Part shown: positions 6,801-12,732 of the stretch, one piece after another
How the letters are laid out: the number at the start of each line of letters is the position of its first letter
Position numbering within the stretch: the first letter of the stretch is position 1
Assembly: GCA_951640195.1 (NCBI GenBank)
Contig: OX621165.1
Coordinates: 2,480,001 to 2,544,000 of the forward strand
Direction of reading: 5' to 3'
Source of the DNA: Porpolomopsis calyptriformis
Lineage: Eukaryota > Basidiomycota > Agaricomycetes > Agaricales > Hygrophoraceae
Length of the DNA stretch: 64,000 nucleotides
Position numbers and translations under genes: made by a program
The notes under the pieces: generated by a model
The model's database searches: none
Seen by the model: the letters and a program-made list of their open reading frames with translations, nothing else
What the model was told of the DNA's origin: nothing

Positions 6801-6805
6801 GATTG
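6801..6805 (+). repeat. Target site duplication GATTG, left
   Basis: GATTG directly precedes the left terminal inverted repeat and recurs directly after the right one at 12728-12732. Confidence 0.75.
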
Positions 6806-6905
6806 TATGGTTGACGAGAGTGATCAGCCTATAAATTCACAGCTCGGCCAGTTTTTTAAAGCGGCAGCACAATTCGGCAGAGCGGCTGGGTCAGAGACCC
6901 CATAC
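6806..6905 (+). repeat. Left terminal inverted repeat
   Basis: This 100-base repeat matches the reverse complement of 12606-12727. It contains spaced GCGGC boxes and a small hairpin GGGTC-AGA-GACCC near its inner end. It begins TATGGTTGAC and ends CCCCATAC, so the repeat itself has short inverted ends. Confidence 0.85.
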
Positions 6906-7149
6906 ACCTCCTACTTCTCATGATCTAATTTAATAGAGCTGGCGGCAGCAAGTATTTAAGTAGTAGCGAGACTGTGTAGGTATGCCAGTTGGAATACGTT
7001 GACAGTTAGGAATGCAAGTAGAGAACAGCTTTGAGGAAACCGCAATACGCAGCGGATTTCAACGATGAAGAATCATTACTTGCTAAACAAAATATTTGAA
7101 AGTCAGATCATAAAAAAAAACGTCCGTTTTCTACTCTATAACACAAGTA

Positions 7150-9688
7150 ATGGCTGATTTCACAATGAATGGCGACAACTTGGCAGTATGCCAACGATGC
7201 AAAATCTCCTATCCGCCTGGGACGAAGCTCTATTATATGCAGGACCGAAATCCCAATAACCAAGGTAAATATCTATGTTCGGGATGTCATACTTATTATC
7301 TGGAGAAGACCGCATCCTGAGAACTCACAATAGGTGAGAATAGCTCCTTTAGTTGGGTAAAGAGTGGGGTATTCATTTTGCGCACAGCACAAACTGCAAA
7401 CCGGCATGCGGTTCAAAAATCTGTGGCTGTGGCTCAGCGAGATGGTAAAATTTATTCAGAAATGCTGATGCGCACTTACTGTTTAGCATAGGTGTATCCC
7501 ACCCTTTGCGTATCAGACACAAAGTGACTATGCCGCCACCACCAGCGCCTCCGACACCACAGGTCCAGGGGGACGCCACCGCGCTGCTGCAATGGCCGAC
7601 ACGCAACAGCAGTAGGCGTGGAAGCGGACCCAATGTTTTTACTCCGGGACAGAGACTCACGTCCCAAATAATCAATATTCCCGACTTCCTCGAACATTAT
7701 CCATCGAACGCTGGATACCAAGAAGCTCATGAACATTATCATGGGATGCGAAACTTCTTTGCCTGCCAAGCGTATTCCTTGGGTAACGTGGAGTTGGTAG
7801 TCGTGAAGGTCGTCATGAAATGTTTAAAGCCTGCACATAAAAACCCAATGATCGTCTCGGTAAGTTCAGTAATAGTGGTCTAGGATCAAGCTGGCGACAC
7901 TTACCAGAACATATCAGAAACGATTAACAACGTTCCTGTACATATTGGAATAGGTGGTCTCAAAGTCGTCGCATTCATGACGCTTCATCCGCTGTTCCTG
8001 AAGTGGTCGAAGGGTGTCGCGCTTGACATAGATCAGCTTCATCTGCGTGATAAAGATTGGGTAGAAATGTTACCAATACCAGGGGTTCCAGATGTGGATG
8101 CAATTGCATCCAGATTTTTCGTAGCCAGAGGGAAAGGAAAGCAAGTGCAGTTTCATGCTGGTAGAGGCACAGAGATTTCACTTGAGCTGCCGATGGAGAT
8201 ATTTCGAGAAATCAACGAAAGACTGGATGCGGAAGAATTTGGAGACTCTGAGATTTCAAGGCTGGTCTGTATCGTGCATTGCATTCTGTTTGAGCCCTGA
8301 CACGATTCCGTCTTATAGTTGATGCCAGGTGCACGGAAACATACTGGAGCAAAGGTCGTTGATAAAGAAGCCAATGAAGATTCACACGCGCAACAAACAA
8401 TTGGAAGGAAACGTATACATTCAGAGGTGCACATAATACCATTCGGATTTTCAGCTTTCAGAACGCTGACATATTTCCTGCTAGAGTACTACCTGTACCC
8501 CGCCTTCAAAACGCCAACCCACCAATACAGTCCATGAGTCTCCAGAGCACGATGCAGTTCTACGTGCCCTTCAAGCTCAAAGGGCACCTTCAAAAAGATG
8601 TGTTCAATCTCTTCGTGAGTTTTCCATTACTCCAATTCACTTTCCTAACACTATTCATCATAGTGAACACCGTGTCTATTTCTTGCGTTGTGTATCTTAC
8701 TTCCGAGACAACGTATACTGGACTCATTGCCAACCCCAAGGCATTCGATGCAAAGAGGGATAGCACCAATCCTCTTAGATTGGATCTCTTAATTGACCCA
8801 AACGCAAACGCAAAGTATGGGGGATTCAAAAAGGCGTTATTTGGCCACACGAGTCTCCCGATTTTTGGACCGTCCGCCTCCGTGTGTGTCAAACAGTGTT
8901 GGTATAAATGTCCGACTACCCAAGCGCAGCTCTTGTTCAATACTTCAATGCAATTGACCAAGCTCAGTACCGAGATCAATTGTTTTAGATGGGCTTCAGC
9001 TTTGATGACATCCGTCTATGAATTTATGGAGGCTCACGCCAGTTCCTCTCCCCTGCCGTTCACAATCCCAGAGATGCGCTTCGTCAAAACTGTGTTGGCC
9101 ATTCCTGACGATAGACAACACGGTGCATACCTAGTCAAGGAACTCATCAATGAGGCGGTTGAAGGAAAGTTCACAAAGTATATTGGTAATGGTTCAGTCA
9201 AGCCGCTCGGGCGCCTTGACGAAGATCTTCTCCATCGCGCTGAGTTTCTCGCATTCTGCCAACACGTTCAATACCTGAAAACGAAGGGGCTTGCTCTTGT
9301 TGCCGATTTTCAAGGTACGTTCATATAACTGTCAACGTGCATTTATTCATGTAACTACAGGTGGACGAAGCTTGCTGAGTGATCCTCAAATCATTACTGA
9401 ACAGTAAGTGATTACAATTTTAGCCATTTACATTTACTCATCCTTGGCTGTTCAAGTACAACCGGCCACAACTTTGCTGAAGGAAACCTCGCATCAACAA
9501 TCGCTTTGTTCCCTGCTGAGCATGCTTGCAACAAGTTTTGCGAGTTTTTCGACCTTGAACCATTTCCCAAGCCAGATAGTGATGATAGCGACGGCGGCAA
9601 CAATGGGAAGGATGCCAGCCCTCTCTTCAATCCCGATAGAGATGACGAAGGCATTGTATCAATGCAGTTCTCAACTCAAGCTGGCTAG
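7150..9688 (+). CDS. Alpha-type (MHCK/eEF2K-like) protein kinase domain protein, transposon cargo
   Basis: The C-terminal 250 residues read as an atypical alpha-kinase domain. VCVKQCWYKC holds the presumed ATP-site Lys. ALVADFQGGRSLLSDPQI is the catalytic DxQG region. GHNFAEGNLAS is followed by HACNKFCEFFDL, the Zn-binding His/Cys tail of the family. Introns that restore the frame lie at about 7861-7909, 8264-8318, 8428-8490, 8616-8669, 9315-9360 and 9403-9455. A Pro-rich linker (PPPPAPPTPQ) precedes a middle region of unknown function. The first segment, 7150-7320, has CQRC...CSGC, a zinc-ribbon-like pair, but ends in an in-frame TGA with no usable donor before it. The true start is therefore uncertain, and this segment may be a separate 56-residue frame or mark a damaged 5' end. 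Confidence 0.65.
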
Positions 9689-9815
9689 TTAGGGTATTTT
9701 GAATACACCACGCTCGTTACATGTTCATACGAATGGTTATCGTACCATGTCCACTCATTACTTACCAGTATTAGCCAATTTAATTTAATCGTTTTGTATG
9801 TTTAAACCTGAGAAT

Positions 9816-11642
9816 TTAATGCGAGGCAGTTACACTATCGTCATCATTATCTGTAAAATCGGCAAACTCTGGTTCAACCCTTGGTTCCGTGTCTGACTCA
9901 GTATCTTCCTGCGTCAACTCCAAATGACCACGGAGGCCACTTGTCGGAGGTCCGACCAAGCCGCCAATGTACCTCGTCCCTCTTGGCCCAATGACATTGT
10001 CTTCATTTCGAAATGGTTTCATATTTGGCAAAACAGCCATGGCGTCACCCTCATCATCAAGCTGCCTGGTACCTTCAGCAAACATTGTAAGTAAATCTAC
10101 AAGACCGTGACCTAATTCTCGTTCATGGAAGCATTGTTGGAGCTGTTGGTAAATGTTCCAGAATGACTTGGAACAAACGACTGGTTGGCCAAGTGACACA
10201 TAAAATTCATGGGCGCGCTGGTCAAAGACTTTGGGGACAAGTTGAAATACTGGGTGATGGCGAGGTGCGTACTGAGCTTCAACTTCGTCAATCAGCTCTG
10301 GTGGAACAGGAATCTGTAACAGTGTTGTATTGTAAGATAATGATAAGAATGGGAGTGATGTTTACCTTGAAATCAATCGCACGATAGCGATGCGGCTTTG
10401 TCCTGATAAGAAAAGGAATACCGTGCGGGAGCAGTTTGTTTTTGTCCAGTCGCGGAGCACATCGATTCTTGTAACGGACCCATTCGTCGATTTCAGCCTG
10501 AAGCCAGGGGATACCAATCCACCGAAAAACAAAACTGAGACATATACATTAACTTTATGATCACTGGGAATAGGATGATTGCACTTGTCCAGTACATCGT
10601 TCACATCATACCACCCATTTTGAACACCCTGCTCCAAAATGTCCTCGAAACCAGGTGAGAAGTCGCATCGAAAAACAGACCATTTGATTTCAGAGAGGAT
10701 GTTGTTGTGATGGCTTGCGAAGCAGTGTTGAAGTGTGCCAACAAGCGTCAGATCGAGGCGGTGGCGGATAACCGTCTGAGCATTTGCTACACCATTGTTT
10801 TCTGTGCCTAGATCACTTTGGGTGATCACCGGGACAGCTTACAAGACATTAATACAGATATTCAGAGAATGACCGAAAGAGAAAGAAAGATGCTCACCAC
10901 CAATCCTGCGGCAAGTGTGGAGGAAGTAACCAGCGATAAGGACTGGATTTTTGTTTATCCACTATACACGCAACCAATTAATCTCACCACTGAATGCCTC
11001 TAACCCTGCATGAAGCCAAAGCCCAAAGCGGCCCCACTTATCATGCTGATCCTGAGGCCAAATGTCGTTGACGCCAGCTGCCCAAAATCGTCTTCTCTTT
11101 AGACGGCGATTTCGATGCTGTTGAACTTGCTCAGGCTCTACTACCTTGAGAAGCTTTCCAACAAGCTCCCTGAAAATAAACCTAAGCGAAAGCATCAACA
11201 TCAAAACTAGAATAACACACCTCGGTACATGTTCCCCATGCAATTCTCGCAGGTTGTTTCGAATAGACTCTGGGCCACGAGTGGGGAATTGTAGACGAAT
11301 ATTTCGCACCTTCTCATAGATGGTTTCCAAGGTGTGCTTCTGTTGGCGTGTTGATCGAAGGCCCCATTTTTTGCGGAGACGTCGAAGTGTTATTACACTG
11401 TAGAGAATTTGGTTGTACCAAACACAGACTGTAAATGAGTACATACCTCAAGCCATACAGATTAGTGTCATAATGGTCTTTGAGATGTTCAGTGATATCG
11501 ACGTCTGACATGCCAAGTTGAAAGTAACCTTCTAACGGACCACGAATATCCTCGTCTGGTGCTGCAAACACAGTTAGGGCTGTAAAGTGAAGATCAAGAA
11601 CGACGAACGACAAGGCTTATATTGATTCGTTTGACGCGGCAT
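9816..11642 (-). pseudogene. Integrase core (rve, DDE) protein with a nonsense codon
   Basis: This belongs to the basidiomycete integrase-core family. In order it has an HTH-like N-terminus (HLKDHYDTNLYGL, then LRRLRKKWGLR), ESIRNNLRELHG, RRLKRRRFWAAGVNDIW, the first catalytic Asp in QDQHDKW, the second in ITQSDLGTEN, and a Glu about 40 residues on in SEIKWS. After these come IPWLQAEIDEW, LLPHGIPFLI and a Glu/Asp-rich tail. Several introns keep frame. At 10962-10964 the codon after NWLRV is TAG, where family members as I recall them have Trp in a WW pair; the frame continues as WINKNPVLIAGYF. One G-to-A change would explain it. The likely start is ATG 11642. It presumably encoded the transposase of the surrounding element. 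Confidence 0.75.
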
Positions 11643-12149
11643 GGTATTGAATGTAGGGTGTTTCCCACGTGAGTACACAATAACTTCGACTTCAACCACA
11701 CTCACTGACTCAATTGCACAAGCTATTCACCCAACGTATCAAACATTTTCACATTGTTGAAGTTACGCAAATCGCTCATTTGACCAAGGTGTTTCCAACC
11801 AACTATAGATTAGCTGGCTCATCAACAGGTTGAATCACAGTTTTCCTTGCAAGAGCTGACTCTCCATCTCGTCCTCCATCTGGCTGGAAAGATGTAAACA
11901 TCCACCAAGATTCAGGCCAGAAAAGCCTTGATGTCAAGCCCTTGAACACCGCGAACGACATGAAGGAGAGAATTAGGGCAAAGAAGACATCCCTCCCAAC
12001 AAGTAGTTCATTTATTTTTTCCAAAAGCAACTGAAAGATGAGTCTCCTTGCATGCTCACTATCTGAAAGAAGATTGACCTCACTTGTTTTTTGCCGAGTG
12101 TTTTTTTCTTTTTTTATATCTTGTGATGGGATTCCTGTCGTCACTCACC

Positions 12150-12473
12150 ATGTCCACCAGCCCCCAATCCAACAACGTGTCTTTTGAAAGCAGCACGGCT
12201 TCGTTTGCTCAAAACGTGTACCATATTACTGCGTATGCATCTTTCGTGATCATATTCCCCCCGCCCCCGCCCCTAACTATGCCCCCGCCCCCGACTACGC
12301 CTCCGCCCCCACTGGTCTCCGCACGCAACATATGCGTTCCGGGAATGATTTGGAATGCCTTCCGAAGACTTAATTGGTACGTTAATCATTCCCACTACGT
12401 TTTTTTTTGCGCTCACTACAGATCTAGCCGCCTTCGCAATACGCTCCAACATCGTTTCGGATCCCAAGCCTGA
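12150..12473 (+). CDS. Possible small cargo gene, function unknown
   Basis: A frame starting MSTSPQSNNVSFESS is Ser/Asn-rich and runs into a CCCCCGCC-rich stretch. In a second frame the stretch reads as tandem APAPNYAPAPDYASAP followed by GLRTQHMRSGNDLE and a stop. A splice joining the two frames is possible but not proven. A minus-strand frame at 11803-12144 with one hydrophobic segment (FFALILSFMSFAVF) is an alternative. Neither is recognised. Both lie inside the transposon, between the integrase start and the right inverted repeat. Confidence 0.2.
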   Translation: MSTSPQSNNVSFESSTASFAQNVYHITAYASFVIIFPPPPPLTMPPPPTTPPPPLVSARNICVPGMIWNAFRRLNWYVNHSHYVFFCAHYRSSRLRNTLQHRFGSQA

Positions 12474-12605
12474 GGGGTAGCTGACGCAATCTCCATAAGT
12501 CCTTTAATTATTTTATCTCTTGGTACTCATTTTTTCTCGACAAAAATTGACATGCCAGCCTAGTATACCAATAGTTAAGGTGTACATATATTTTTAAAGA
12601 ATACT

Positions 12606-12727
12606 GTATGGGGTCTCTGACCCTGCCGCTTTGCCGAATGGCCCTGCCGCTTCAAAAAAACTGGCGGAGCTATGAACTATGTCTGTGCACGTGTCGCAAT
12701 ATAGGCTGATCACTCTCGTCAACCATA
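12606..12727 (-). repeat. Right terminal inverted repeat
   Basis: The reverse complement of this 122-base segment matches 6806-6905. It has about 22 extra bases after the outermost 28 identical bases. GCGGCAG boxes and the GGGTC-TCT-GACCC hairpin are shared with the left copy. Confidence 0.85.
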
Positions 12728-12732
12728 GATTG
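12728..12732 (+). repeat. Target site duplication GATTG, right
   Basis: This is identical to 6801-6805 and directly abuts the right inverted repeat. Confidence 0.75.

Follow-up and report, generated by a model that had tools for sequence, protein, structure and literature searches.

The window examined here, a stretch of 64,000 nucleotides from the agaric Porpolomopsis calyptriformis (GenBank assembly GCA_951640195.1, contig OX621165.1, positions 2,480,001 to 2,544,000), contains an element of 5,922 bp (6806-12727) that is very likely a two-gene, cut-and-paste transposon of the IS3EU type, with an alpha-kinase gene convergent to its transposase gene as a regular partner. Its termini read TATGG..CCATA, and the outermost 28 bases of both ends (6806-6833 and 12700-12727) are fully complementary (100%). 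Base composition predicts about 3e-8 perfect inverted 28-mers per 64 kb, so that none would be expected by chance. Further inward the inverted arms continue at 91% (6836-6857/12655-12676) and 89% (6852-6906/12605-12659), the terminal repeats spanning about 100-120 bp in total, and the inner left repeat contains GCGGCAG-type boxes and a GGGTC..GACCC palindrome. The pentanucleotide GATTG abuts both ends as a 5-bp duplication; a 6-bp duplication is ruled out by the flanks, which read CGATTG on the left and GATTGG on the right. An earlier note on this DNA had reported the inverted ends with identical outer 28 bases and the GATTG repeat, and direct sequence comparison bears out both.

The two genes between these ends (Table 1) lie on opposite strands and are 127 bp apart. 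The spliced kinase model matches the alpha-kinase family PF02816 (E 4.1e-15; 56.8 bits against a cut-off of 21.3), and an eEF2 kinase chain matches it at E 6.1e-9. Its DxQG, DPQI and HACNxxC stretches, which we take to be catalytic and zinc-binding, align with eEF2 kinase chains; it differs from eEF2 kinase in being encoded within a transposon and in its zinc-ribbon-like N-terminus (CxxC..CxxC), the alpha-kinase domain being C-terminal. No Pfam family matches the region ahead of the domain. Exon 1 is interrupted by an in-frame stop (7318-7320), which is an addition to the earlier note, and the kinase domain is open. A structure model of a kinase relative was poor (mean predicted local distance difference test, pLDDT, 40.7) and was set aside. 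The transposase matches PF24764 (rva_4, an integrase core) at E 3.1e-6, with 27.5 bits (cut-off 26); its reading frame is broken by one in-frame stop (10959-10961), and the first intron of the model has no clear GT donor. Its nearest full-length named relative, P0055, is 54% identical over 97%, the D, D and E residues are unchanged across 13 relatives, and the structure model of P0055 is closest to IstA, TnsB and retroviral integrases in a second look at 176 weak candidates. Both the broken rve/DDE integrase gene and the convergent alpha-kinase gene of the earlier note are thereby confirmed, the former as an rva_4 gene with a single stop, the latter by its family match and the opposite strands.

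The earlier note regarded a kinase inside an integrase-type transposon as an undescribed arrangement. This was wrong, because PMC12730594, in the part available, reports IS3EU transposons in which transposase and alpha-kinase genes are oppositely oriented and which also carry a TET gene. That part of the paper describes such TET-carrying transposons in seven rust species, plus one family in Tuber indicum, the rust families having 6-bp duplications, TAYGG..CCRTA ends and inverted repeats of > 30 bp. The window element has the ends, the repeat length and the opposed genes in common with them; it differs in its 5-bp duplication, in its agaricomycete host and in what separates transposase from kinase, namely 127 bp with no TET/JBP gene, all 45 Tet_JBP matches from the genome search lying outside the element. 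With IS3EU/GingerRoot, as treated in the part of PMC10045372 that was available, it shares TA..TA termini and an integrase-like DDE transposase; complete IS3EU families are there said always to have TA..TA termini and usually 6-bp duplications. Given this “usually”, we take the 5-bp duplication as a variant trait, and the element is probably an IS3EU variant with 5-bp duplications and without TET, its membership being probable rather than settled. Styx of Zymoseptoria, derived from IS3EU according to an excerpt of PMC10853768, likewise has an IS3EU-related transposase in a multi-gene fungal element, but it has a 6-bp duplication and its other genes in that excerpt are two with DNA-binding motifs and one with DUF3577, with no alpha-kinase. 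Among open-licence PubMed Central papers, Repbase being outside the search, only PMC12730594 combines “IS3EU” and “alpha-kinase”; among the matches listed there, no further title pointed to other kinase-bearing elements of this kind, and none of these searches turned up a form with 5-bp duplications and no TET. What is new here is the duplication length and the gene content, the arrangement of kinase and transposase itself being known from IS3EU.

Table 1. Features of the transposon in the window.
Feature	Position	Strand	Basis
Target duplication GATTG, left copy	6801..6805	.	Direct sequence reading
Left terminal inverted repeat, TATGG start, outer 28 bp identical to right end	6806..6906	+	
Alpha-kinase gene, nine-exon model	7150..9688	+	PF02816
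Alpha-kinase exons	7150-7333, 7388-7444, 7492-7859, 7908-8264, 8319-8426, 8455-8614, 8664-9314, 9361-9403, 9457-9688	+	
Transposase gene, seven-exon model	9816..11642	-	PF24764 rva_4
Transposase exons	11642-11619, 11561-11447, 11397-11221, 11169-10898, 10837-10585, 10534-10366, 10313-9816	-	
Right terminal inverted repeat, CCATA at its end	12605..12727	-	
Target duplication GATTG, right copy	12728..12732	.	Direct sequence reading

A comparable pair appears to exist in Hygrophoropsis aurantiaca. The best-scoring full-length kinase relative, P0174, which resembles the window kinase in N-terminus and layout, is from this species and lies on a contig of 6,044 bp; the transposase relative P0060, from the same species, is also on a 6,044-bp contig. 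From the equal sizes we infer that both are on one contig, of about the size of the window element. Species names are available for four kinase relatives (one Tricholoma, one Hygrophoropsis and two Russula), and Hygrophoropsis is the only one whose contig size recurs among the transposase relatives. With 7,996 candidates scored and 3 proteins retrieved, the search for full-length kinase relatives says little on how widespread the pair is.

The window element is not the only locus with these ends. Allowing up to 3 mismatches, a search of 33.5 Mb for its outer 24-mer gave 8 matches, against 0 for a reversed-pattern control: two belong to the window element, three are single ends on contigs C1, C10 and C11, and three lie in one element on C14. 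Over 111 bp, three other ends of the genome share about 95% identity with the left terminal repeat. The C14 element (C14:534525-536655), about 2.1 kb long, is largely an inverted duplication; its outer left flank closes with TGAGG and its right flank opens with TGAGG (5 bp, not 6), and the two ends concerned presumably belong to one insertion. The C14 element (L042) has the form of a foldback: ends of the window family enclose a nearly perfect palindrome of 2 kb, which takes in a part of the element's right flank. The single ends on C1, C10 and C11 are 23-108 kb from the contig start, border arrays of an approximately 158-bp satellite and have a common outer flank. We take them to be one insertion copied along with its surroundings. 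No second end was found within 20 kb around each, so these loci yield no duplication. The satellite arrays (L006, L008 and L010, on C11, C10 and C1) have, besides the unit of about 158 bp, a higher-order period of about 476 bp. The search for the terminal repeat proposed in the earlier note thus did find further ends, including one insertion with its own 5-bp duplication, so that the lack of other such loci, which the note would have counted as a refutation, does not apply. Kinase and integrase together do not recur, the window copy being the only one found to hold both.

A search of the genome with a kinase exon gave 36 matches, which, like all genome-wide counts given here, is a lower bound: the window kinase, 7 copies of a group A, 26 of a group B, an older relative of group A on C2 and a diverged copy on C7. 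All seven group A copies were read and are near-identical (at least 98.4% over 3.7 kb); 12 of the 26 group B copies were read and are at least 99.88% alike, the other 14 being assigned from their match, and the C2 relative is about 93% similar to group A. The window kinase is the only one of the 36 with a transposase of this kind within 150 kb in the rva_4 family search and a search with the window transposase exon combined. A TET/JBP-like match is found within 6 kb of 32 of the 36 kinases; these matches score 23-30 bits, under the Pfam cut-off of 34.9, and are mostly in open frames of 250 aa. Thirty kinase matches are on contigs of known length; the nearest contig end is at most 320 kb away for 27 of them and at most 150 kb away for 19, and these contig ends would correspond to chromosome ends.

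Part of these kinases are bounded by IS3EU-type ends of their own. The group A kinase on C8 (2089560-2092102; 2,543 bp) is enclosed by inverted repeats that are about 90 bp long and 85.7% similar and that start exactly with TATGG and finish with CCATA. The older copy on C2 (597848-600612) has TATGG..CCATA ends and a perfect 6-bp duplication, CTGTAT, which the right flank on C8 no longer shows. Both ends were read in these two of the eight copies of the kinase-only group. The kinase-only element is, as judged from its ends, an IS3EU-type insertion with the kinase and without the transposase. For the C8 copy, kinase and TET in one element, as in the rusts, was considered and rejected, the TET-like gene being outside the inverted repeats. 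Group B is homologous to group A only from a point within the kinase exon onwards, meaning that the left end has been cut off. The left end of the kinase element occurs without the kinase in two stretches read (C1 and C5); on C1 it is inverted and about 17 kb from the kinase, which would fit a rearrangement within the unit before its multiplication. The long flanks common to the multiplied copies indicate that they spread as larger segments, and our reading is that a transposon brought in the kinase-only element, which was then multiplied through segmental duplication. The suggestion of the earlier note that a shared vehicle explains the kinase expansion is supported only in part: the C8 and C2 copies are bounded by TATGG..CCATA, but 35 of the 36 kinases have no such transposase nearby and the multiplied copies have long flanks in common.

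Between groups A and B (L023 and L028) the kinase exon has 10 synonymous differences at 129 sites and 8 non-synonymous differences at 453 sites, a ratio of non-synonymous to synonymous proportions (pN/pS) of about 0.23; the ratio is about 0.05 to 0.46 in five other pairs and 0.54-0.58 for the degenerate C2 copy. An in-frame stop occurs in 1 of 19 kinase exons read, on C4. This suggests that the multiplied copies are under purifying selection, with the counts being small and the copies non-independent. On C16, pairs of alpha-kinase and TET/JBP-like matches are found at 2610, 51891, 101172, 150453 and 199734, five units at an exact spacing of 49,281 bp, and on C1 (114381 to 318559) such pairs are in tandem about 47-53 kb apart; this reflects either extensive tandem arrays close to contig ends or an effect of the assembly. 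On C5 (15624 to 162256) the left end of the kinase element recurs at an exact spacing of 29,310 bp at six places from 15624 to 162174, which suggests that a further large array in tandem is present; no kinase is seen in the single stretch read.

In the most likely course of events, the transposase would have bound the terminal boxes, its putative binding sites, and the element ends would have been joined to target strands cut 5 bases apart, leaving a copy of GATTG at each border. Its recurrence in another fungus and in the published IS3EU families makes the kinase most likely a regular partner of this transposon lineage, not chance cargo. The in-frame stop in the transposase implies that the window copy has probably lost its own mobility, and with its intact-looking ends it might be mobilised by a transposase from elsewhere. 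Only tentatively do we propose that the kinase modifies a host or element protein, leading to better expression or movement of the element; candidate targets would be the transposase, translation (cf. the relation to eEF2 kinase) and host silencing. It is equally speculative to see the alpha-kinase as the core second gene, not cargo, of a widespread fungal IS3EU lineage that also rides alone between IS3EU-type ends, one kinase-only element having been preserved by purifying selection and amplified to about 34 copies, mostly beside a TET/JBP-like gene near chromosome ends, so that it was possibly taken over by chromosome ends.

The kinase could instead be plain cargo, i.e., a host kinase caught once and without a role for the element. 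The 35 matches without a transposase of this kind would agree with this, as would the lack of a Pfam match ahead of the domain, but the opposed pair is also present in the TET-carrying IS3EU of rusts and Tuber (PMC12730594, in part), the Hygrophoropsis relatives of both genes are on contigs of equal size, and ends of this kind also bound a separate kinase element, which makes this explanation unlikely. An unrelated kinase around or beside which a transposon inserted, with nested repeats posing as one element, would explain why just one genome copy with both genes was found. However, perfect 28-bp ends and a perfect duplication enclose two closely spaced genes and the pair recurs in other fungi, so that a chance association is very improbable.

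Several points weigh against a two-gene IS3EU-type transposon as well. Its 5-bp duplication stands where 6 bp is usual in IS3EU (part of PMC10045372), and duplications of 5 bp occur in 2 of the 2 window-family insertions with both ends readable (GATTG and TGAGG), of which the one on C14 is rearranged and its TGAGG read via an inferred inverted duplication. For the transposase model Foldseek gave no match at E <= 0.001, so that the support from its fold comes from the second look at weak candidates, and a profile search of solved structures yielded just an acyl carrier protein (E 0.13) and an integrase (E 0.85). The co-location of P0174 and P0060 is deduced from equal contig sizes, and a search of the genome with the joined flanks for an empty site gave only the window's own two flanks. 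The duplications could point to a new superfamily beside IS3EU, with an integrase fold and 5-bp duplications, the more so as another rva_4 transposon of the genome differs in its ends and has duplications of 6 bp. Against this, TATGG..CCATA fits TAYGG..CCRTA exactly, the gene orientation fits, a 6-bp duplication flanks the kinase-only element, whose ends are of this kind, and 6 bp is described as the usual length; we consider a new superfamily improbable, slightly more so than plain cargo. The integrase-type DNA transposon with an alpha-kinase gene that the earlier note proposed is upheld by the ends, the duplication, the PF24764 and PF02816 matches, the further copies of the ends and the Hygrophoropsis relatives. 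At least one source of fungal alpha-kinase genes is mobile, namely IS3EU-type transposons. Two stages are visible in the genome: an element that has both kinase and transposase, and a derivative with the kinase alone that was multiplied within larger segments, mostly near contig ends. The reason for which a protein kinase is retained by a cut-and-paste transposon becomes a testable question.

To the left of the element, at about 5.4-6.5 kb of the window, two of three tested open reading frames match fatty acid desaturase PF00487, one above the curated cut-off and the other below, and the two tested on its right match no family; on this basis the insertion site is read as intergenic. The window transposase exon finds two places in the genome, the window itself and a paralogue on C2 at about 990 kb (43% identity in the query exon, with stops); neither a kinase match nor clear terminal repeats are present within 13 kb of the latter, which is, therefore, uninformative on gene content. 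In scans of viral contigs, no relative was confirmed among 36 pattern hits for the transposase and 120 for the kinase. The 38 matches of the rva_4 family search include neither the window transposase nor the C2 paralogue, indicating that diverged copies can escape this search. Three of the loci with rva_4 transposases (L046, L047 and L048, on C4, C11 and C13) carry a separate transposon of about 8.0 kb, > 99.8% identical, with 6-bp duplications (CAATTC on C4, GGATCG on C11) at the two copies for which both ends were read. Its ends are TTTGAGGGGC..CCCTTCATA, it contains further open reading frames besides the rva_4 transposase, and it looks recently active.
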